The notes under the pieces are model-generated. The model was not told the origin of the DNA and made no database searches. It was given only the letters and a program-made list of their open reading frames with translations. The position numbers and the translations under genes were made by a program. Below, one piece after another: positions 6,007 to 33,117 of a stretch of 64,000 nucleotides of DNA. Within the stretch, counting starts at the first letter, position 1. Every line of letters begins with the position of its first letter. This stretch comes from Geoalkalibacter ferrihydriticus DSM 17813 (GTDB lineage: Bacteria; Desulfobacterota; Desulfuromonadia; Desulfuromonadales; Geoalkalibacteraceae): positions 79,276 to 143,275 of the forward strand of contig NZ_JWJD01000006.1 of the NCBI RefSeq assembly GCF_000820505.1, given 5' to 3'.

Positions 6007-6866
6007 TGTCCGCTGCGCCGGTGAATGAAAGTTGGACGGTTCTCAAGGTTCTGGAGTGGACCGCCGGTTATTTTCGCGAACGTGGTATCGAATCGGCGCG
6101 GCTTGACGCCGATCTGCTGCTGGCCGCAACCCTTGAAGTCGATCGGGTCGGCTTGTATTTGCGCTATGACCAACCTTTGCAGGCGCAGGAGCTGAGTCGC
6201 TTTCGCGCTCTGGTGGCGCGGCGCGCGCGCCGTGAACCCCTGGCTTACATTCTTGGCGAGGCGGAGTTCTGGTCTTTGTCCTTTAAGGTTTCATCGGGGG
6301 TGTTGATCCCTCGCCCCGACACCGAGGTGCTGGTAGAAGAGGCTCTGGCTTGCGGTCCCGCTGAAGCCCGGGTTCTCGATGTCGGGACTGGGAGCGGTGC
6401 TCTCGCCGTGGCCCTGGTCGTGGAACGGCCCGCCTGGCAGATGACGGCCCTCGATGTGTCGAATCTCGCTCTGGAGGTGGCCACAGGCAATGCCGCTCGG
6501 CACGGGGTGCGGGAGCGCATACGTTTTCTGCTCGGCGACCTGGCGCACCTGCCGGAAGAGGAATTCGATCTGATCATTGCCAACCCACCCTATATCCCCA
6601 GCGACGATCTGTCCGGCCTCATGGCCGATGTGCGGGACTTCGAGCCGCACCTGGCCCTGGACGGCGGCGCCGACGGGCTGGCTGCCTACCGCGCTTTGGC
6701 TTCCCAGGCGCCGACGCGTCTGAGCCCCGGCGGTTGGCTGCTCGTCGAAATCGGTCAGGGGCAAGAGGTGGCGGTGACAGAGCTTTTTCAACAGGCGGGA
6801 CTTGGGGAGATTCATACCCGTGCCGACTACGCCGGGATCATCCGCGTGGTGGGCGGACGCATCTAA
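6006..6866 (+). CDS. prmC: Release factor glutamine methyltransferase PrmC
   Basis: S-adenosylmethionine-dependent methyltransferase that N5-methylates the glutamine of the GGQ motif in release factors. The protein has 286 residues: an N-terminal helical RF-recognition domain (to about residue 90), then a Rossmann methyltransferase domain with VLDVGTGSGALAVAL (motif I) and the family signature NPPYIPS (motif IV, around residue 195). Start is GTG at 6006, overlapping the prfA stop. The stop is followed by a 93-bp spacer with heptameric repeats before murA, so prmC is probably the end of the thyX-prfA-prmC unit, although read-through is possible. Confidence 0.95.
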   Translation: MSAAPVNESWTVLKVLEWTAGYFRERGIESARLDADLLLAATLEVDRVGLYLRYDQPLQAQELSRFRALVARRARREPLAYILGEAEFWSLSFKVSSGVLIPRPDTEVLVEEALACGPAEARVLDVGTGSGALAVALVVERPAWQMTALDVSNLALEVATGNAARHGVRERIRFLLGDLAHLPEEEFDLIIANPPYIPSDDLSGLMADVRDFEPHLALDGGADGLAAYRALASQAPTRLSPGGWLLVEIGQGQEVAVTELFQQAGLGEIHTRADYAGIIRVVGGRI

Positions 6867-6959: not shown

Positions 6960-8213
6960 TTGGATAAAATCATCATTCATGGCGGCAGGCGGCTCAAGGG
7001 TGAGGTTCAGGTCAGCGGTGCCAAGAATTCGGCCTTGCCCCTGCTCTTTGCCACGCTGTTGGCGCCCGGCGTGCATCGTGTCAGCAACGTGCCGCATTTG
7101 CGCGACATCGATACCGCCGAAAAATTGCTGAGTATTCTGGGCGCCCGGGTGGAGCGCGAAAACGGCACCTTTGCCGTAGACGCCACGTCTATCGAGAGCG
7201 TCGAGGCGCCCTATGATCTGGTGCGCACCATGCGCGCCTCGGTCCTGGTGCTGGGGCCCCTGCTGGCGCGCTGCGGCCATGCGCGGGTGAGCCTGCCGGG
7301 CGGTTGCGCCATCGGCGCGCGGCCCATCAACCTGCACCTCAAGGGCTTTGAGGCGCTGGGTGCGAAAATAACTCTCGATCATGGCTATGTCGAGGCGCGC
7401 GCCCGCAGTTTGCAGGGTGGGCGGGTGCGTTTTGATATTCCCACCGTGGGCGGCACGGAAAACCTGATGATGGCGGCCACTCTGGCCAAGGGCACGACAG
7501 TCATCGAAAACGCCGCCTGTGAACCCGAGATCGTCGATCTGGCGGAAGCCCTGGTGAAAATGGGTGCGCGCATCAAGGGGGCCGGCAGTGACACCCTGAC
7601 CATTGAAGGCGTACGTGAACTTCAGCCCTTTGAACACACGGTCATGCCCGATCGCATCGAAGCCGGCACCTTTCTTGTCGCCGGCGCCATGACGCGCGGC
7701 GACGTGCGGGTTCGGGGACTGCGTTCCGCCCATCAGGAGGCACTGATCGTCAAGTTGCGCGAGGCGGGGGTTGAGATCAGCGGCGCTGGAGACGAGCTGC
7801 GGGTCAAGGGACCGCGGCGCATTACCCCCGTCGATATTCGCACCTCTCCCTATCCGGGTTTTCCGACGGACATGCAGGCTCAATTCATGGCGCTCATGGC
7901 CCTGTCCGACGGTGCCAGCGTCATCAATGAAAACGTCTTCGAAAATCGCTTTATGCATGTATGCGAGTTGCAGCGCATGGGCGCCGACATCGCTATCGAC
8001 GGGCACACCGCCGTGGTGCGCGGGGTCAAAAAGCTGCTCGGCGCCCCGGTCATGGCCACCGATCTGCGCGCCAGCGCCTCGTTGATTCTGGCAGGCCTGG
8101 CCGCCGAAAACACCACCGAAGTTTCGCGCATCTATCACCTCGACCGCGGCTACGAGCGCATCGAAGAAAAGCTCAAAGGATTGGGCGCGGATATCGAGCG
8201 AGTCAAGGAATAA
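6960..8213 (+). CDS. murA: UDP-N-acetylglucosamine 1-carboxyvinyltransferase
   Basis: First committed step of peptidoglycan synthesis: transfers enolpyruvate from PEP to UDP-GlcNAc in the cytoplasm. The 417-residue length is normal. The start is TTG at 6960, giving the conserved N-terminus [16 protein letters not shown]. The catalytic cysteine is present in [13 protein letters not shown] (around residue 117), so the enzyme is predicted fosfomycin-sensitive. Other conserved parts are GAKNSALPL near residue 21 and [14 protein letters not shown] near the end. The ribosome site is weak. Gene and spacer repeats upstream and downstream match, and the his genes follow on the same strand. Confidence 0.96.
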
Positions 8214-8231
8214 ACCTGTCATGGGCGGCAT

Positions 8232-8297
8232 GTCCCTGGTCATTGGTTTTTTCAGGTTTTTTGCCAGGGACAAATGACAAAGGACAAAGGACAGCCT
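8232..8297 (+). repeat. Heptameric tandem repeat with hairpin, murA-hisG spacer
   Basis: A perfect inverted pair gtccctgg (8232-8239) / ccagggac (8264-8271) is followed by 7-base units gccaggg, acaaatg, acaaagg, acaaagg, acagcct (8263-8297). It is the same repeat type and arrangement as at 6886-6953, flanking murA on both sides. The hisG ATG follows directly, so the last unit occupies the position of its ribosome-binding region. Confidence 0.7.
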
Positions 8298-8299
8298 TT

Positions 8300-8962
8300 A
8301 TGAGCGACACCATCACTTTCGCCCTGCCCAAGGGGCGCATCATGAAAGATTCCATGGAGCTGTTCGCGCGCATCGGGATCACTTGTCCTGAAATGAGCGA
8401 CGACAGCCGCAAGCTGGTGTTCGAAAACCGCGAAGATCGCCTGCGCTTCATGGCGGTGCGCGCTACCGACGTGCCGACTTATGTGGAGTACGGTTGCGCG
8501 GACATCGGCGTGGTGGGCAAAGATACCCTGCTCGAACAGGGCAAGGATCTCTATGAGCCGCTGGACCTCAAGTTCGGTTATTGTCGTCTGGTGGTGGCCG
8601 AACCCAAAGAGTTGCAGCGCATGGACGATCCCGCCAACTGGTCGAACATTCGCGTCGCCACCAAATACCCCAATATCACCGAGCGTTATTTCGCTGCCCG
8701 CGGGGTGCAGGTGGAGTTGATCAAGCTCTACGGCTCCATTGAGCTGGCGCCCCTGGTGGGGCTTGCCGAGCGCATCGTCGATCTGGTCTCCACCGGCGCC
8801 ACGCTGCGCGAAAACGGCATGGTCGAAGTGGATACCATCGCCGACATCACAACGCGTCTCATTGTCAATCGCGCCAGCCTCAAGACCAAGCATCAGCGCA
8901 TCCGCAAAATCATCGAGGGGCTGGAGCAGGTGGTGGGTGAGACGGTACGTATTTCAGGTTGA
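8300..8962 (+). CDS. hisG: ATP phosphoribosyltransferase, short form
   Basis: First enzyme of histidine biosynthesis: ATP + PRPP to phosphoribosyl-ATP. At 220 residues this is the short HisG lacking the C-terminal ACT-like regulatory domain. Short forms are known to need the HisZ regulatory partner, which is not in this window. Recognisable are FALPKGRIMKDS at the N-terminus, RATDVPTYVEYGCADIGVVGKD, and the PRPP loop region DLVSTGATLRENG around residue 165. The ATG at 8300 is chosen because it gives the canonical N-terminus. Much longer in-frame starts reach back into murA. The stop is followed 8 bp later by hisD. Confidence 0.95.
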   Translation: MSDTITFALPKGRIMKDSMELFARIGITCPEMSDDSRKLVFENREDRLRFMAVRATDVPTYVEYGCADIGVVGKDTLLEQGKDLYEPLDLKFGYCRLVVAEPKELQRMDDPANWSNIRVATKYPNITERYFAARGVQVELIKLYGSIELAPLVGLAERIVDLVSTGATLRENGMVEVDTIADITTRLIVNRASLKTKHQRIRKIIEGLEQVVGETVRISG

Positions 8963-24992: not shown

Positions 24993-25103
24993 TACCCAAT
25001 CGGTCGCGTATACGGTGTCTTTGCCGTTCCCGCTCGGAAAACCTGTGTTTTTGGGCCGGTGTCGGTGGGAACTCAGGGTGGACTCTCAAGGAGGATGGAG
25101 ACG

Positions 25104-26102
25104 ATGAAAAAAGTTCTGATTGCGCTGCTTTGCCTGTCGCTGCTGGTCGGCTGCGAGAAGAAGCAGGATGGGGATGAAACCGCGGAAACCACAAGGCCGG
25201 GCGCCATGCGCTTTGTCACGATTGGCACCGGCGGCGTGACCGGCGTCTACTATCCCGTAGGCGGGGCCATCAGCCGGCTGATCAACGAGCGGCGTGCCGA
25301 GTTCAATCTGCGCACCACGGTGGAGTCCACGGGTGGCTCGGTGTTCAATGTCAACGCCCTGATGAACGGTGATATCGAACTGGGCGTGGTGCAGTCCGAC
25401 CTCCAGCACCAGGCCTATCGCGGCCAGGGTGAGTGGGAAGGGCGGCCCCAGGAAAAACTGCGCTCCATGTTCGCTCTGCATCCCGAGGCAGTCACCATTC
25501 TCTCTGCCGAGGCGTCCAACATCCACCGCGTCGCCGATCTGGCCGGCAAAACTGTCAACATCGGTGCGCCCGGCACCGGTCAGCGGGTCAACGCCCTGGA
25601 TCTGTTCGCCGCCGCCGGCCTGGACCCCTCACGCGATCTGCGCGCCGAGGGCATTCGCCCCGCCGAATCGGCGAGCATGCTGCAGGATGGGCGCATCGAT
25701 GCATTTTTCTATACCGTCGGTCACCCCAACGGTTCGGTGCAGGAGGCGGTGGCCGGTGCGCGCAAGGTACGCTTCGTGCCCGTCGACGCCGAGCTGATCG
25801 AAAAGCTGGTTGCCGAGCAGCCCTACTATGCTCCGGCGCAAATCCCCATCGCGCCCTATCCCGGCGTCGTGAACACCGAACCCGTCCCAACTTTTGGCGT
25901 CAAGGCAACCATCTGCACCTCGGCCGATGTGCCCGAGGATGTCATCTACACCATCACCCGCGTGGTGTTTGAGAACCTTGATGCCCTTAAGGATCTGCAT
26001 CCCGCCCTGGCGGTTCTGACGCCGCAGAATATGCTCGAGGGTCTGTCCGCGCCCCTGCATCCGGGTGCCGAGCGTTACTTTAAGGAAAAAGGTCTGCTCT
26101 AA
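25104..26102 (+). CDS. TAXI family TRAP transporter solute-binding lipoprotein
   Basis: Periplasmic substrate-binding subunit of a TRAP transporter, TAXI subfamily, 332 residues. The N-terminus is a lipoprotein signal peptide (MKKVLIALLCLSLLVGC), lipidated at Cys17. Family hallmarks: FVTIGTGGVTGVYYPVGGAISRLINE at the N-terminus and TVNIGAPGTGQRVNALDLFAAAGLDP in the middle, with the ligand-contact region GRIDAFFYTVGHPNGSVQEA. The ligand is not deducible. It begins at 25104 (ATG with ggag) and is followed 81 bp later by the fused permease. A gggggcg / cgccccc hairpin in between may lower permease expression relative to this subunit. Confidence 0.93.
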   Translation: MKKVLIALLCLSLLVGCEKKQDGDETAETTRPGAMRFVTIGTGGVTGVYYPVGGAISRLINERRAEFNLRTTVESTGGSVFNVNALMNGDIELGVVQSDLQHQAYRGQGEWEGRPQEKLRSMFALHPEAVTILSAEASNIHRVADLAGKTVNIGAPGTGQRVNALDLFAAAGLDPSRDLRAEGIRPAESASMLQDGRIDAFFYTVGHPNGSVQEAVAGARKVRFVPVDAELIEKLVAEQPYYAPAQIPIAPYPGVVNTEPVPTFGVKATICTSADVPEDVIYTITRVVFENLDALKDLHPALAVLTPQNMLEGLSAPLHPGAERYFKEKGLL

Positions 26103-26118
26103 GCTTTGAGCCCGAATC

Positions 26119-26147
26119 GGGGGCGTCGCTTGGCGCCCCCGGCTTTT
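26119..26147 (+). terminator. Intra-operon hairpin between TAXI and permease
   Basis: gggggcg (26119-26125) / cgccccc (26134-26140) followed by ggctttt. A weak attenuating terminator is plausible, as binding proteins are usually made in excess. Confidence 0.45.
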
Positions 26148-26183
26148 CATCGGTTGCGGGCTGCTGTTTGCGGAGGGTCATTG

Positions 26184-28250
26184 ATGGCCAAGGATGCTGG
26201 GACACCGAGCGGCGAAGGCGCCAAAGCCGCGCAGCGGATCAAGGAAGAGGAGGAACTCGGTCTGCGACGTCCCCAGGGCTGGCAGCTCTATCTGGTGCCG
26301 CTCATCGCCCTGTGTTGGTCTTTGTTTCAGCTCTCCATCGCCAGCTGGCTGCTCCTCGATACCACCTACATTCGCGCCATTCACCTGGCCTTTGCCCTGG
26401 TCATCGTTTTTCTCTCCTATCCCACCCTCAAGGGCAATGTGCGTCTGCCCGGCCTGAGCTGGCTCGGGGAAAAGCACAAAATCCCCATTCCCGACATGAT
26501 TCTGGCGCTACTTGCCGCCTTGGCCGCTTTGTATATCGTGCTGGATTACGAAGGTATCGCCGGTCGCGTGGGGCGCCCCAGCACCCTGGACATGACGGTG
26601 GGGATCTTTCTGGTGGTGGTGCTGCTTGACGCCGCGCGCCGGGTGATCGGCCCGGCGTTGCCCTTCATTGCCGGAGTTTTTACCATCTACGCCTTCTTCG
26701 GCCCGTATATGCCGGATTTCGTGGCGTTCAAGGGGGTGAGCCTGGCACGCTATGTCAGTCAGATATCTCTGACGACGGAGGGCATTTTCGGCATTCCCCT
26801 GGGGGTGTCGGCGCGTATCGTATTTCTCTTCGTGCTCTTCGGCGCGCTGCTCGACAAGGCGGGCGCCGGCAAATTCTTCATCGATCTGGCCATGAGCCTG
26901 CTCGGGCGCTACAAGGGCGGTCCGGCCAAGGCGGCGGTTCTGGCCAGCGGCATGACGGGCATGGTGTCGGGTTCCTCCATCGCCAACGTGGTGACCACGG
27001 GCACCTTCACCATTCCGCTGATGAAAAAAGTCGGCTATCCGGCGAAGAAGGCAGCCGCCATCGAGGTGGCGGTGTCCACCAACGGCCAGCTCATGCCGCC
27101 CATCATGGGCGCGGCGGCCTTCATCATCGCCGAGTACGTCAACATCACTTATCTCGAAGTGGTCAAGGCGGCGGCCATTCCCGCCTTCGCCAGCTACTTC
27201 GCCCTGTTTTTCCTCACCCATCTGGAAGCGTCGAAATTGGGTATGCGCGGCCTGACCAAGGCCGAAATGCCGGTGTTCTTCAATATTTTACGCAGCGGCT
27301 TTTATTTTCTGGTGCCGATTCTGGTGCTGCTTTATGAGCTGATCATTCCCCGGCATTCCCCCGACCTGGCCGCCTTTCGGGCCATTCTGGTGTTGGCGGT
27401 GATCATGCTGTTTCAGCATGCGGTCAAAGCGGCCATCTGGGGCGGCAGTCCGCTGCATGGCATCAAGCAGGGGGCCTTCGATATTCTTAACGGGCTTATA
27501 TCCGGGGGGCGCAACATGGTGGCGGTGGCAGTGGCCACGGCGGCTGCGGGCATTATTGTCGGGGTGGTGACCCTGGGGCTGGGCGGGCTGATCACCGACG
27601 TCATCAACGCCCTGAGTCGCGGCAACCTCTATCTCATGCTGCTTATCACCGCCATGGCCAGCCTGATTCTGGGCATGGGGCTGCCCACCACCGCCAATTA
27701 CATCGTCATGGCGACGCTCACCGCGCCCGCGCTGGTGACCATCGCCGGCTGGCAGGGCTTTGAGGTGCCGCTCATCGCCGCCCACCTGTTCGTGTTCTAT
27801 TTCGGCATACTGGCCGACGACACGCCGCCGGTGGGTCTGGCGGCCTATGCGGCCAGCGCCATCGCTCGCTCCGAGCCTATTGCCACGGGCTTTCAGGCCT
27901 TTTCCTACGACATCCGCACGGCGGTGCTGCCCTTTATGTTCATTTTCAATACGGATATGCTGCTGATCGGGGTGGAGGGCTATTTTCTGCCCTTTTACAT
28001 CTTCTTCATGACCTGCGTGGGCACCTTCGCCTTTGTCTCGGCGACGCAAAGATGGTTTGTCGTGCGCACGCGCTGGTATGAGATCATTCTGCTGCTGGGA
28101 GTCGCACTCATCATGTTTCGTCCCGGCTTTTTCGCGGGCTTTGTCGGTGTCGAAAATCACTACCTCAGCTACCTGGTCGGCCTGGCGCTGTATGCGGGCA
28201 TCTTCGCCCTGCAGACATGGCGTGCCCGTAGGCAACCGGCTGCGGCCTGA
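26184..28250 (+). CDS. TRAP transporter permease, fused DctQ-DctM type
   Basis: Membrane subunit of 688 residues that uses an ion gradient to take up the substrate delivered by the TAXI protein. The fused 4TM/12TM form is usual for TAXI systems. About 16-18 hydrophobic segments are visible. Key DctM motifs are MTGMVSGSSIANVVTTGTFTIPLMKKVGY (around residues 255-285), the NGQLMPPIMGAAAFIIAEY stretch and ADDTPPVGLAAYAASAIA (around 540-565). The start ATG at 26184 with ggagggtc is chosen over an upstream in-frame start at 26106. The usp gene follows 17 bp later in the same operon. Confidence 0.93.
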   Translation: MAKDAGTPSGEGAKAAQRIKEEEELGLRRPQGWQLYLVPLIALCWSLFQLSIASWLLLDTTYIRAIHLAFALVIVFLSYPTLKGNVRLPGLSWLGEKHKIPIPDMILALLAALAALYIVLDYEGIAGRVGRPSTLDMTVGIFLVVVLLDAARRVIGPALPFIAGVFTIYAFFGPYMPDFVAFKGVSLARYVSQISLTTEGIFGIPLGVSARIVFLFVLFGALLDKAGAGKFFIDLAMSLLGRYKGGPAKAAVLASGMTGMVSGSSIANVVTTGTFTIPLMKKVGYPAKKAAAIEVAVSTNGQLMPPIMGAAAFIIAEYVNITYLEVVKAAAIPAFASYFALFFLTHLEASKLGMRGLTKAEMPVFFNILRSGFYFLVPILVLLYELIIPRHSPDLAAFRAILVLAVIMLFQHAVKAAIWGGSPLHGIKQGAFDILNGLISGGRNMVAVAVATAAAGIIVGVVTLGLGGLITDVINALSRGNLYLMLLITAMASLILGMGLPTTANYIVMATLTAPALVTIAGWQGFEVPLIAAHLFVFYFGILADDTPPVGLAAYAASAIARSEPIATGFQAFSYDIRTAVLPFMFIFNTDMLLIGVEGYFLPFYIFFMTCVGTFAFVSATQRWFVVRTRWYEIILLLGVALIMFRPGFFAGFVGVENHYLSYLVGLALYAGIFALQTWRARRQPAAA

Positions 28251-28267
28251 GATGGAGGAAATCCGTC

Positions 28268-28753
28268 ATGCTGCCTGGTTATCGCACCATCCTCTATGCC
28301 AGCGATCTCTCGCCCAACGCCGCTCATGCGTTTCGTCACGCGGCGGCGCTGGCGCGCAGCTTTGACGCGCGGATCTGCATCCTGCATGTGTTGCCCGAGG
28401 TTGAGTCGGCGGTGCTCAATTACGTGGCGACGGTCATGGGTGAGGATCGCCTGGCCGATCTGGAGTTAGGTCACAAAGACGATGTGCGCACCGAGATTGA
28501 GGCGCGCATCGAGGCCTTCGCCCGCGAGGAGCTTGGCGATCATCCTGAGGACAAGGCGCGTATCGACGAGATCCGCGTGCGTCACGGCAATCCCGTAGCG
28601 CGCATTCTTACCGAAGCCGATGAGATCAACGCCGACCTCATCGTGCTCGGCAGCCACGGCAAGGGGCGCCTGCACTACACCTTCCTCGGTAGCGTCGCGG
28701 AAAAAGTTCTGCATCGCGCCAAGCGCCCGGTGCTGGTGGTGCCGCTGGATTAA
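28268..28753 (+). CDS. Universal stress protein (UspA family)
   Basis: Protein of 161 residues with the UspA fold: N-terminal strand YRTILYASDLSPNAAHAFRHA, a central helix with ELGDHPEDKARIDEIRVRHGNP and the ATP-binding G-x2-G-x9-G-S/T motif GSHGKGRLHYTFLGSVAEKVLHRAKRPVLVV (about 125-155). It probably binds ATP. Being 17 bp behind the TRAP permease suggests cotranscription. Usp genes attached to TRAP operons are known, and in Halomonas a Usp regulates a TRAP transporter. It ends 19 bases from the convergent MCP gene, leaving almost no spacer. Confidence 0.92.
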   Translation: MLPGYRTILYASDLSPNAAHAFRHAAALARSFDARICILHVLPEVESAVLNYVATVMGEDRLADLELGHKDDVRTEIEARIEAFAREELGDHPEDKARIDEIRVRHGNPVARILTEADEINADLIVLGSHGKGRLHYTFLGSVAEKVLHRAKRPVLVVPLD

Positions 28754-28772: not shown

Positions 28773-30491
28773 CTAAGGCAAAAATCTGCCTGAATCGCTT
28801 TTGGCACCCAGTTTGAATCGCGCCATGAGTTCGCGCAGTCTGTGCGATTGACCGGCCAACTGCTCGGCGGCCGCCGCGCTCTGTTCGGCATTGGCGGTGT
28901 TCTGTTGCGTCACCTGATCGACCTGACCCAGCCCGAGGTTGACCTGGGCGATGCCCTCGGCCTGTTCGCGCGTGCCTGAAGCGATTTCGCTGACCATGCT
29001 GGTGATATTTTTGATGCCGCCGACAATGGCGGAGAAGGATTCCTCGGTGCTGCGCGCGATTTCGGCACCCGCCTCGGCCTTAGCGACGGCGTCGGCGATG
29101 AGATTGGATGTTTCCTGCGCTGCTTTGGAGCAGCGCCCGGCAAGGGTGCGAACTTCTTCGGCCACCACGGCGAAGCCGCGTCCGTGCTGACCGGCGCGCG
29201 CTGCCTCCACCGCCGCATTGAGCGCCAGGAGATTGGTCTGGAAGGCGATCTCGTCGATGGTTTTGATGATTCTTTCGATATTGTGACCCGCCTGATTGAT
29301 ATTGACCATAGCCTGGCTCATTTCCCCCATGCGCCTCTGCCCTTGACCTGCGGATTCCTGAATTCCGCGAATCAGGTCATTGGCCCCGGAAGCATGTTCA
29401 GCCCCCTGGCGCGTCTGTCCGGCGATTTCGTTCATGGATGCCGAAATTTCCTCCAGCGATGCCGCCTGATCCGTCGCCCCCTTGGAGAGATGTTGGCTGG
29501 AAGCGGCCACCTGCCCGGCCCCCGACGCGATCTGGTCGGCGGATTGATGAATCTGTGAGATCGTGCCGCGCAGATCCTCGGAAAGTTTCTGTAAAGCGCC
29601 GCGCACGATATCGTCCTGGTCCCGTGGCTGTACGCTGCGCGTCAGGTCGCCTTCGGCAAGGCGCGCGAGAGTATCTACGACCTCATTGCGCAAACTGTCC
29701 GCCAATGCGTCCATGGCGCGGGCGGTGTCGCCGATCTCGTCCTGGCGCTTCATGTTGAGCCGCTGCACCAGGCGGCCTTCGGCCAGTGCCTGCATCATTT
29801 CGCGCAGGCGCAAGACCGGGATTTTCACCAACCGGCCCAGCAGCACATAAATGCAAACCAGTGCCGTAAGCAGTCCCCCTATGCCCGTGGCCAGCCCCGT
29901 GCGAATGCTGCCGGTGGCCGCCTGATCGGCAGTCGCGGCCATCAGTGCGGCGGCTTTATGAATGTCCTGCATACTGTAGCGCAGGTACAGCACTCCGGAT
30001 AAATCATTGAGTTTTGCATCAAAGTGACAACGCAGGCAGTCGGCGCTGAGATAGTGACTGCGGGCGAGAAAAAGCGAGTCCCCCTGTTCTTTCTGCAGCA
30101 ATTCGTATCCGGAAGCGACGGCTTCGGCAAAGTCTTCGGGACTTAAGGATCTCTGCAGGTTTTCAGGGCGGTTGGTGTAAACAATGAGGCCCTGGGGGTC
30201 GGTCAAGCCGATCTCCTCGACGCCGCTAATCGCGCCGAGATCCTGAATCAGCTCGCGAAAAATATCCATTTCGCCGCGTTCGATGGATCCGGCCGCTCCG
30301 GTCTCAAAGCTGTCGAAGACGTTGCGGGCCCGGTCCCGGCCTGCTTTGTTCAGGGCGCCAAGGGCCTGATCCGAGATGGTTTGCTGCAGGTTTCGCATTT
30401 GCGCGCCGCCAACGAATGTGCTTGCGCCGAAAGCGATCACCAGCACCAGGGCCAGAAGTCCGCCCACCCTCCACTGAATGTTTATGCGCAT
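28773..30491 (-). CDS. Methyl-accepting chemotaxis protein with periplasmic haem-c motif
   Basis: Transmembrane chemoreceptor of 572 residues. Order: TM1 (about 7-29), periplasmic sensor (30-196) containing C152-x2-C155-H156 (ADCLRCHFD), TM2 (about 198-221), HAMP (to ~275) and the cytoplasmic signalling coiled coil with the conserved hairpin [21 protein letters not shown]. The CxxCH is in the periplasm, so a covalently attached c-type haem is predicted. This is like the haem-containing sensor domains of Geobacter chemoreceptors (GSU0582 and GSU0935). The start codon (30491) lies 28 bp behind the hydrogenase small subunit stop, on the same strand, so it is very likely cotranscribed. Signal: redox, NO/O2, or electrons from the hydrogenase (inference). 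Confidence 0.93.
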
Positions 30492-30519
30492 GGTTCAATC
30501 TCCCGAAAGCAGTCCGGCG

Positions 30520-31431
30520 TCAAAAAAGATTGTCCTCGTTGAGACGGAAAAAGGGGAATTGGGGGTCGAGGGCGAATTCCGGGCGCGCGCACCCGATGCA
30601 GTTGCTGCGTCCGCGAATGCACCAGTTCACCCCGCCGTTCCAGCCGCGCAGCGAGCAGTCCGCCTGGGTGATGACACCCTGACAGCCCATTTTGAAAAGA
30701 CAGCCGTCCTCGCCCAGGTTTTCGGCGAAATGCTTTTTCTGGTACAGGGCGAAGAGCGGACATTGCTCATGCAGAAGATGGCCGTAAAAATGCGTAGGTC
30801 GCTGCAGGGCGTCCAATTCCGGCAGGCCGACCTTGAGCACCTGCATCAGCGTACCGACGATCCAGGCAGGATGTGCGGGGCAGCCCGGCAGGTTGATCAG
30901 GGGGCGGCTCAAGCCGGCTTTGTTCAGCGCGATACTTACCCCGGTGGCGCCGGTGAGATTGGGCGGAGCGGCGGGCACGCCACCGTAGGCCGAGCAGGTG
31001 CCGGTGCAGACGATGGCTTGAGCAGAACGCGCCGCGCGCACCAATTGGTCGGCGAAATTTTCGTCAGCGAATTTGCAGGCCTCTTTGATGCCGAGAGGAA
31101 CCGCGCCTTCGACCACGAGAATATAGCCGCCCTTGGCGATGGCTTTTTCCACCGCAGCCACCGCCGAAGGTCCGGTGGCTGCCGAAAGAGTCTGGTGAAA
31201 ATACAAGGAAAGGTAGCGCGTGAGGAGATCCGCCGGGCCCGGACTTTCCGAATTCAGCAGGCTCACCGAACATCCGGAACACGACAGGCCCTGCAACCAG
31301 AGAATGGGCGCGCGCCCGTAGGCCATCTCCTCCAGAGCATCGGCCATTTTGGGCAACAAGGTGGGTTCCAGACCCATGGCGGCCACCAACAGACCGGCGT
31401 CCTTGAGAAAGGTTCTGCGCGTGATCTTCAT
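30520..31431 (-). CDS. [NiFe] hydrogenase small subunit
   Basis: Electron-transfer subunit of a periplasmic [NiFe] hydrogenase, 303 residues. It begins with a Tat signal (RRTFLK, residues 5-10; hydrophobic DAGLLVAAMGLEP) at the ATG 31431. Cysteines for three Fe-S clusters are visible: proximal CSGC (51-54), CTGTC and GCPAH, then the medial and distal region HLLHEQCPLF ... CLFKMGCQG ... NWCIRGRSNCIGCARP. There is no C-terminal transmembrane anchor, unlike membrane-bound HybO/HoxK types. The gene follows the large subunit (reverse of the usual small-large order) with a 19-bp gap and precedes the MCP by 28 bp. Confidence 0.94.
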   Translation of the reverse strand: MKITRRTFLKDAGLLVAAMGLEPTLLPKMADALEEMAYGRAPILWLQGLSCSGCSVSLLNSESPGPADLLTRYLSLYFHQTLSAATGPSAVAAVEKAIAKGGYILVVEGAVPLGIKEACKFADENFADQLVRAARSAQAIVCTGTCSAYGGVPAAPPNLTGATGVSIALNKAGLSRPLINLPGCPAHPAWIVGTLMQVLKVGLPELDALQRPTHFYGHLLHEQCPLFALYQKKHFAENLGEDGCLFKMGCQGVITQADCSLRGWNGGVNWCIRGRSNCIGCARPEFALDPQFPFFRLNEDNLF

Positions 31432-31450
31432 GACAAGAGTCCTTCCGGGT

Positions 31451-32953
31451 TTAATGCACCGCGCAGGCGATGCAGGGATCAAACGCGCGCACCACCCGCG
31501 CCACCTCCAGGCCTTGGTACGCCTCGTTCACCGGGGTGCCGACCAGGGCGCTCTCCACCGGCCCCGGATTCTGCTCGGCGTCGCGGGGTGAAAAATTCCA
31601 GGTGCTGGGGACTACGCACTGGTAACTGCCGATGCGCCCTGCTTTCAGGGTGATCCAATGGCCCAGGGCGCCGCGCGGTGCCTCGACCAGTCCGACGCCC
31701 GAGCCCGCGTCGCGGTTTTTGTACGGCACGATGGCCGGGGCGCCTGGTTGCATCGCGTCCAGCCACTGCTCCATGCGCGCGGCGAGGAGCTGGGCTTCCA
31801 GGGCCCTGGCCGCGTGACGTCCCAGGGTGCTGGGCAACTGCTCTTCGCGCAGCCCCGTCTCGCGAAGGAGTGCGGAGAGGCTTTGGCTGATGGAGCGCTC
31901 GCCGGCAGCGGCGGCAACCACCAGGCGCGCCAGGGGGCCGACTTCGTAACTCAGGCCGTTGTAGCGCGGCGCTTTGAGCCAGGAATAGGCGCGGGGTTTG
32001 TCGGGTTGGGGAATAGGGGCGGCGGCGTCCTTGGGATGGCTTTTATGATTGCCGCGATAAAAACCGCTGGTGGTGTCTTCGTGAATAAGCGCGAGGTTCA
32101 GTGGCTCGTGCCCCTTGCCGTTGACCGTTCCGGCGGGCATCCAGGTGCTGGCGCCTTCATCGAAGACGCCGTAGGAGAGAAAGCGTGCCGGCCCCCGCCC
32201 GATGTCGGCGTAGCTTGGGTAAAGACGCGCAGCCTGTAGAACGTCGGGGATGTAGCAGCGTTCAATAAAACGTCGCACACGGCGCAGGCGCGCGCGGAAA
32301 TCCTCCAGCACGGCCGCGTCCGCAACGCAGGTGACGCCTCCCGGCACCAGAGTTGCGGCGTGCGGCATTTTCCCGCCGAGCAGCGCGGCCATGCGGTGGG
32401 CTTCCTGGCGAATCTCCAGCGCTTCGACATAGTTGGCCAGAGCACCGAGGTTCCACTGCGGGTCTGCGGCGTAGTCGCCGGGAAGTTTCGGCAGAAACGG
32501 GGCTACCGGCAGAACTCGGTTGGTCCTGATTTCGCTTTCCGCCCAGTTTTTCAGATCCACAAGCACCGGATCGCGTCCCGTGTAGCCGAGCAGAGCCTCC
32601 ACCTTGACGAAATCCAGGGCGCTGAGGTGGTAAAAGTGCAGAATGTGGCTTTGCAGGTAATTGGCGCCGAGAATCAGGTTGCGCAGGTAAAGGCCGTTGG
32701 CAGGTACCCTCAGACCGCAGGCAGACTCGATGGCTTTGCAGGAGGAAATGGCATGGCTGATGGGGCACACCCCGCAAATGCGCTGGGTTATGACCGGCGC
32801 ATCCAAGGGGTCGCGGCCTTGCAGGAGCGCTTCAAAGCCGCGAAACATTTCGCCCTTACTCCAGGCCTCGGCCACCTGACCGCCGGCAATACGTGTTTCG
32901 ATACGCAGATGTCCTTCAATGCGGGTGAGGGGATCGAGAACGATTTTGGCCAA
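31451..32953 (-). CDS. [NiFe] hydrogenase large subunit without C-terminal processing peptide
   Basis: Catalytic subunit, 500 residues, carrying the Ni-Fe site. N-terminal L1 motif RICGVC (C60, C63) and C-terminal L2 motif DPCIACAVH (C494, C497), with the stop directly after the last histidine. Normal group-1 hydrogenases carry 15 or so extra residues cleaved by a maturation protease. This one lacks them, like regulatory/H2-sensing hydrogenases. Start is TTG at 32953, preceded by aggaggg; other in-frame starts lie far upstream without a ribosome site. The protein starts LAKIVLDPLTRIEGHLRIE (L read as fMet). No hyp maturation genes or protease are in the window. Confidence 0.93.
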   Translation of the reverse strand: MAKIVLDPLTRIEGHLRIETRIAGGQVAEAWSKGEMFRGFEALLQGRDPLDAPVITQRICGVCPISHAISSCKAIESACGLRVPANGLYLRNLILGANYLQSHILHFYHLSALDFVKVEALLGYTGRDPVLVDLKNWAESEIRTNRVLPVAPFLPKLPGDYAADPQWNLGALANYVEALEIRQEAHRMAALLGGKMPHAATLVPGGVTCVADAAVLEDFRARLRRVRRFIERCYIPDVLQAARLYPSYADIGRGPARFLSYGVFDEGASTWMPAGTVNGKGHEPLNLALIHEDTTSGFYRGNHKSHPKDAAAPIPQPDKPRAYSWLKAPRYNGLSYEVGPLARLVVAAAAGERSISQSLSALLRETGLREEQLPSTLGRHAARALEAQLLAARMEQWLDAMQPGAPAIVPYKNRDAGSGVGLVEAPRGALGHWITLKAGRIGSYQCVVPSTWNFSPRDAEQNPGPVESALVGTPVNEAYQGLEVARVVRAFDPCIACAVH

Positions 32954-33102
32954 TGGACCCTCCTGTTTACAGGGTATGAATGATGGGTTGGCAGCTGAGT
33001 GATGGAATCTTGACGCGGAGCGGCGAATAAAAAAGTTTACAGATATCCGTTCGCATCCCCTCTGATTCTGCCGGTTTGCGCCGACACGATTCCGTATACA
33101 AA

Positions 33103-33117
33103 GCAAGGGTGGCGCCA
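33103..33117 (-). promoter_or_regulatory. Candidate sigma-54 promoter for the hydrogenase operon
   Basis: On the minus strand this reads TGGCGCCACCCTTGC, with the invariant GG and GC separated by exactly 10 bases, as in the sigma-54 consensus TGGCAC-N5-TTGCA (the final base of the TTGCA box falls just outside the given span and is T). It lies about 150 bp before the large-subunit TTG start. The match is good but one short motif can arise by chance. Confidence 0.45.

Follow-up and report, generated by a model that had tools for sequence, protein, structure and literature searches.

The window analysed here, a stretch of 64,000 nucleotides from Geoalkalibacter ferrihydriticus DSM 17813, carries three co-directional genes on its minus strand, which encode the large (hydL) and small (hydS) subunits of a [NiFe] hydrogenase and a methyl-accepting chemotaxis protein (MCP) with a haem c site. 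We propose that hydL-hydS-MCP is one signalling unit, in which a [NiFe] enzyme in the periplasm senses H2 by reducing the haem of a membrane-spanning receptor; the output in this organism would be chemotaxis (probability about 0.7). With slightly less confidence, we also consider it probable that such units form a separate, second class of [NiFe] H2 sensor across the window's phylum: exported, free of a C-terminal extension on the large subunit, using the covalent haem of a receptor as electron acceptor, with interchangeable outputs, and sensing by electron delivery rather than by ligand binding. The features on which this proposal is built are the following.

31451..32953, minus strand: hydL, [NiFe] hydrogenase large subunit, 500 residues (PF00374, NiFeSe_Hases, 472 bits; four active-site cysteines invariant)
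31454..31480, minus strand: C-terminal motif DPCIACAVH of HydL, stop codon directly after it, without maturation peptide (sequence and alignment)
30520..31431, minus strand: hydS, small subunit, 303 residues, with twin-arginine translocation (Tat) signal (Pfam, TIGR01409, ligand set)
31402..31425, minus strand: twin-arginine motif ITRRTFLK of HydS (TIGR01409 above cut-off)
28773..30491, minus strand: MCP with periplasmic c-haem sensor, 572 residues (PF00015 and PF00672)
29922..30404, minus strand: periplasmic single-Cache (PAS-like) sensor, approximate limits (AlphaFold2 model, pLDDT 82.5; Foldseek)
30267..30269, minus strand: M75, candidate distal ligand of the haem (the same in 13 of 13 receptors)
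30024..30038, minus strand: haem c site C152-L-R-C155-H156 (invariant in 13 of 13 aligned receptors)
29688..29819, minus strand: HAMP domain (Pfam)
28908..29366, minus strand: MCP signalling domain (Pfam)

The original prediction, made from the letters of this DNA, had described three genes in one direction with gaps of 19 and 28 bp, and the coordinates reproduce this layout. The apparent start of hydL is a TTG codon behind AGGAGG (32959-32964). The adjoining genes on both sides, named by reading of their open reading frames (ORFs) as a UspA-like gene ending at 28753 and an AAA/ExeA-like gene from 33388, run on the plus strand, and hydL-hydS-MCP is therefore a closed unit. Neither intergenic gap holds a promoter- or terminator-like site in a scan of the stretch. 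A promoter between hydS and the MCP gene, which the original prediction had named among the findings that would speak against it, was looked for in the gap and not seen, and an independent MCP promoter was rejected on this ground. A weak promoter-like site lies inside the MCP gene (30030-30003), where the total for the stretch is three sites against 1.2 expected.

Conservation of the hydL-hydS-MCP adjacency, also raised by the original prediction, was examined by a profile search within the order. This search recovered 14 loci in 12 of 136 genomes at 843-925 bits, apart from the paralogous Hyb hydrogenases at no more than 619 bits, and a phylum sample of 395 genomes yielded further members. 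The adjacency is kept amid different outer genes, and it persists at 54-83%, down to 44%, large-subunit identity to the window. Gaps in the orthologous loci measure 12-37 bases between hydL and hydS (13 loci) and -8 to 28 bases between hydS and the MCP gene (12 loci). No near relative was found in plasmid records (145 records, all below 60% identity).

The pairing was then counted in a table of 102 loci, which is not exhaustive, and whose entries were picked by large-subunit similarity or length and not by their neighbours. A total of 104 large subunits with the second metal-binding motif were counted, and seven fragments lacking it were set aside. Thirty-eight large subunits, from 34 genomes, are free of a C-terminal extension, and 35 of them are followed by hydS and a transducer with a single CxxCH. 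As for the three exceptions, two stop at a contig edge (L053, L119), and the third (L114) keeps a receptor remnant. Hence, hydS and a transducer with the Met...CxxCH arrangement follow 35 of 36 assessable extension-free large subunits, as opposed to none of the 66 that bear an extension, Hyb included, in a search window reaching 2.5 kb downstream of the large subunit. Two of these 66 are group-3-like by reading, and five (L007, L058, L059, L063, L185) have a downstream ORF with one CxxCH but without the Met motif or a signalling domain. Five matches from the phylum sample, in G350, G197, G355, G154 and G332, were covered as short loci, each with an extension. In the 35 transducers, the output is an MCP signalling domain in 28, a histidine kinase in four, and cut off by the contig end after the sensor in three. 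Distances between large subunits and distances between sensors correlate (Mantel test, r 0.93, 0 of 2000 permutations, n=31; species relatedness is contained in this value); the comparison used 32 triples minus L123, the ORF start of which is too long. At the exceptional locus L114 (G126, 6352-6597), an intact hydrogenase pair is followed by an 81-residue ORF resembling the receptor N-terminus, and then by repeat proteins.

The missing extension is a feature that had gone unremarked in the original prediction. [NiFe] hydrogenases usually bear a C-terminal peptide that is cut off by a protease. HydL ends directly at its motif and the unit encodes no protease; the only two HycI-type matches of the genome both lie on another contig, C12. 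This contig also carries Hyb, whose large subunit, 47% identical to HydL, continues for 17 residues past the motif and has a protease gene adjoining. As a control, HoxC of Cupriavidus necator ends in DPCMVCTVH-stop, and the membrane enzyme HoxG does not. The four active-site cysteines of HydL are invariant in 17 aligned sequences, its Pfam domain assigns it to the [NiFe] and not the [FeFe] class, and it reads group-1-like. A selenocysteine ([NiFeSe]) enzyme was rejected, since the second metal-binding motif has a Cys codon and the frame is open; the [NiFeSe] profile NF033181 scores HydL at 581 bits, under its cut-off of 600.

The third gene of the unit can be exchanged. In G035, G048, G043 and G068 it encodes, instead of an MCP, a histidine kinase whose periplasmic sensor has CSRCH, so that the hydrogenase neighbour at these loci (L141-L144) is a transmembrane haem kinase; L141 and L143 were flagged by a script test, and the calls for L142 and L144 rest on Pfam. 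Both output types are present in G068 (L052 and L144). By profile comparison, the sensors of the two output types are homologues (hhalign probability 98.5, E 1.6e-15; the second profile combined the four kinase sensors with those of L178-L180). Hydrogenase and haem sensor are thus the constant pair and the signal output is the variable part, which is the strongest argument for a hydrogenase that talks to the haem domain.

The receptor has HAMP and MCPsignal domains, and the single CxxCH that the original prediction had placed at C152, C155 and H156 is confirmed at these residues. The equivalent of M75 is also invariant in seven compared sensors of MCP and kinase type, in both of which a Gly-x-Met-x-x-Phe-type motif lies about 77 residues ahead of CxxCH; a looser expression of this motif matches 35 of 35 transducers in the locus table. 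Both sensor types model as a single Cache domain, with the Geobacter haem sensors GSU0935 and GSU0582 matched among other Cache folds and not at the top. Foldseek placed WalK, CitA and DctB first for the MCP sensor model; GSU0935 (3b42) was the 12th hit (E 2.9e-4) and 3b47 the 40th. With the kinase sensor model, 3b47 ranked 8th and 3b42 17th, and the GSU matches have a root-mean-square deviation (rmsd) of 12-17. GSU0935 was not among the 50 matches listed in a VIA-align repeat of the fold search. Of the traits of Haem-Cache (Tll0287-like, PF11845), the CxxCH is present in 13 of 13 receptors and the single Cache fold is seen in the model; seven of the 13 family members match its profile at E<=1 (best 0.0053), below the gathering score.

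HydS combines the Pfam domains Oxidored_q6 and NiFe_hyd_SSU_C with a Tat signal domain (TIGR01409, 20.5 bits, cut-off 16.7). Its C-terminus (...FPFFRLNEDNLF) is without the longer hydrophobic tail of two aligned Hyb small subunits, which agrees with the earlier description of an exported subunit with no membrane anchor. The cysteine and histidine set, C51 C54 C146 C184; H221 C224 C244 C250; C259 C271 C278 C281, fits three [4Fe-4S] clusters as judged from the residues, and we presume that individual ligands bind the clusters as in the family at large. A variant of the first CxxC, in which the second Cys is replaced by Asp or Glu, was seen in extension-free, haem-MCP-linked enzymes of G290, G400 and G380, with the small subunits located as follows.

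L178:7466-8434: small subunit with Cys to Asp/Glu replacement
L179:5050-5985: small subunit with Cys to Asp/Glu replacement
L180, within 7295-8326: small subunit with Cys to Asp/Glu replacement

From these features we infer contact between HydLS and the receptor, electron transfer to the haem, H2 as the signal, whatever the sign of the response, and H2 taxis. The NiFe site of HydLS would be made without a protease step, and Tat would export HydLS as a soluble periplasmic dimer. This dimer would split H2 and send the electrons along the iron-sulfur clusters in HydS to the receptor, whose Cache domain carries one covalently bound haem. Upon reduction, the haem iron would bind Met75, in the manner of Met60 in GSU0935; this may alter the sensor dimer and, through the HAMP domain, the activity of CheA, such that H2 would be read as a chemotactic signal. 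In relatives of the unit, the same H2 input would drive a histidine kinase. Flagellin is matched twice in the genome, and CheA-like genes six times. The potential of H2 is about -414 mV at pH 7. According to the accessible part of PMC8396549, the midpoints of two Geobacter haem sensors are -251 and -156 mV. These values lie downhill of H2, which could reduce such a haem through the predicted clusters of HydS. The same portion of that source describes Met60 of GSU0935 as the distal haem ligand, 80 residues before Cys140, and reports for the two sensors that the Met is a ligand of the reduced haem and dissociates only in the oxidised state, the oxidised form being most likely the active one.

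The original prediction, in which the hydrogenase could donate electrons from H2 to the receptor haem, is supported by the conserved adjacency, by the absence of the extension and by an exchange of MCP for kinase that keeps a homologous haem sensor. It had also stated that the operon has no cytochrome b or quinone partner, which is borne out, as no other electron acceptor is found among the genes of the unit. The 'reversed' order of large before small subunit, to which it had drawn attention, is real but not special, since the Hyb operon of the same genome, with its Tat-type small subunit, is also large-first.

Several observations weigh against the proposed H2-sensing unit. Only the fold search linked the sensor to GSU0935, and weakly so (12th hit, with a TM-score of 0.34/0.50 and an rmsd of 13.3), a search of PDB sequences with the sensor profile gave no match, a PDB sequence search with the paralogue's sensor missed GSU0935 and returned one chance match (E 1.1), and the receptor of the window has no Pfam Haem-Cache match. 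A haem MCP also occurs downstream of Hyb, and the sensor is therefore not confined to the extension-free type. Lack of an extension is itself broader than sensing: the accessible text of PMC7294309 lists groups 4c, 4e and 4g as extension-free alongside the H2-sensing groups 2b and 2d, yet does not name them as sensors. The counts reflect few independent events, because the rows of the table share ancestry; on the tree, which has 68 rows and does not include L178-L180, as few as two changes between presence and absence of the extension suffice. Two further points lead to other explanations. A signalling-linked haem-Cache protein binds nitric oxide (NO) and behaves as an NO sensor in what is available of a 2026 preprint (PMC12889525), and G062 and G097 (79% and 88% complete) have the unit but no other match to HydL, so that HydLS may itself be the uptake enzyme there.

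Such a role in uptake could be general. HydLS may be a respiratory enzyme that feeds a soluble periplasmic cytochrome c pool, whose redox state the receptor would read (energy taxis), the two being co-expressed for the sake of growth on H2. The two incomplete genomes would suit this explanation, as would a group-1-like enzyme with a Tat signal and with active-site and cluster ligands intact. We nevertheless consider it unlikely, because the unit offers no cytochrome or quinone partner, lacks both the extension and the protease gene that Hyb of the same genome possesses, and is linked to a haem transducer at nearly all assessable loci (35 of 36), and because the same reasoning would have to hold for the kinase variant. 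It is less probable still that NO, O2 or the overall redox potential is what the haem senses and that the hydrogenase is merely co-regulated with it, for instance to steer cells away from O2 that harms the enzyme. Besides the NO-binding preprint protein, GSU0582 and GSU0935 also bind NO (PMC8396549, accessible part), and the haem MCP that G004 has some 4 kb downstream from Hyb could be used in this way too. The difference between 35 of 36 extension-free and, within 2.5 kb, none of 66 other enzymes would be left unexplained, and a conserved Met is well suited to a redox switch. That the three genes are unrelated and stand together by chance, or by passive hitchhiking, is scarcely credible: it has nothing in its favour beyond the small number of independent lineages, and it was rejected on the conservation of the adjacency across loci of such divergent large subunits, with differing outer genes.

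Among known systems, the proposed signalling unit resembles the group 2b regulatory hydrogenases HoxBC/HupUV with HoxJ in having a large subunit without extension and a linked signal transducer. A regulatory hydrogenase with three [4Fe-4S] clusters has been described (PMC5665086, accessible part), and the ligand set of HydS would fit the same. Unlike HoxBC, which is intracellular as far as the available portions of PMC6978683 and PMC8163306 report, and which works with the kinase HoxJ, HydS has a Tat signal and the partner is a transmembrane haem c receptor, mostly with MCP output. The unit thus appears to work like a regulatory hydrogenase, yet fails group 2b on location and partner; HoxC has a long branch in the tree, apart from the window's clade, and its placement is unsure. 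HydLS shares the Tat small subunit with group 1 uptake enzymes, but differs from them in lacking the cleaved extension and the cognate protease, and it differs from Hyb of the same genome, which has an extension, a protease gene and genes reading as iron-sulfur and membrane partners. The receptor is like GSU0935 and GSU0582, as the accessible part of PMC8396549 presents them, in its periplasmic Cache/PAS-like fold, one CxxCH, HAMP domain and MCP output, and the Met ahead of the haem site is as in GSU0935. The nearest idea to the unit is [FeFe] group C2, listed as 'chemotactic (putative)' in HydDB beside [NiFe] group 2b for histidine-kinase-linked H2 sensing (PMC5037454, in the part available). 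Group C2 shares the notion of H2 sensing via an MCP, but is an unrelated enzyme class, and its entry in that part mentions neither haem nor a periplasmic location.

Among the neighbours of [NiFe] large subunits, a neighbourhood study from 2025 lists an MCP cluster (cluster 29, 87 genes; PMC12727194), and the linkage of MCP to [NiFe] genes has therefore been seen before in bulk; the word 'chemotaxis' occurs in the main text of that study only at this cluster. The word 'hydrogenase' is absent from a review of the Geobacter sensors (PMC8396549) and from a comparative study of chemotaxis genes (PMC2577667). Our literature search, which lay mostly outside subscription journals so that absence is unproven, found no description of a [NiFe] hydrogenase paired with a haem MCP. 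'Potential hydrogen chemotaxis' is a phrase used in a paper about a sulfate reducer (PMC12004927), and H2 taxis appears in the available parts of the literature searched as behaviour or suspicion, with no receptor named.

The recurrent pairing of an exported hydrogenase with a haem receptor in iron reducers and their relatives suggests H2 sensing and steering. H2 is a central currency of anaerobic life, and the unit offers a concrete candidate receptor for it, a mechanism in which an enzyme is wired to a haem receptor, and named residues for mutation. If the proposal is true, it would explain exported [NiFe] hydrogenases without maturation peptide or respiratory partner, be relevant to syntrophy, to the corrosion of metals and to hydrogen storage underground, and provide a natural design for H2 biosensors.

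Chemotaxis genes also lie near Hyb operons. MCPs about 4 kb downstream of Hyb, and thus beyond the 2.5-kb search window of the locus table, are without haem in L057, L058, L059 and L063, and with haem in L067 (G004). Apart from the unit's own receptor, the sensor profile has one match in the window's genome; to judge from a 97-base contig overlap, it lies downstream of Hyb, next to another MCP. This occurrence of a haem MCP downstream of Hyb supports a link of H2 enzymes to taxis. MCP genes come after the Hyb operon both in G004 and in the window's genome, one without the haem motif and one with the same haem sensor as the unit.

L007:2-1708 with L154:1138-3075: MCP genes downstream of Hyb
L067:1770-3605 and 1-1596: MCP genes downstream of Hyb

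Upstream of hydL, a scan with the general sigma-54 consensus gave a suggestive match that could have arisen by chance.

33102..33117, minus strand: sigma-54-like match TGGCGC-N5-TTGCT, about 161 nt before hydL

The window holds four such sites against 2.87 expected, which is no better than chance; similar sites precede hydL in L046 and L047, and also Hyb genes (e.g. L059, L067). Convergent to the unit (25059-28753) are genes that read as those for a universal stress protein and a TRAP transporter of TAXI type, a set kept beside the unit in G001 and G002 and partly in G003. Elsewhere, three tandem MCP genes, two with one haem motif, follow hydS in G030 (L048:942-7018), G019 (73% complete) has three diverged extension-free hydrogenase copies (L053, L055, L056), and in G097 the unit lies beside genes reading as hypA and other hyp maturation genes (L050:6367-12284).

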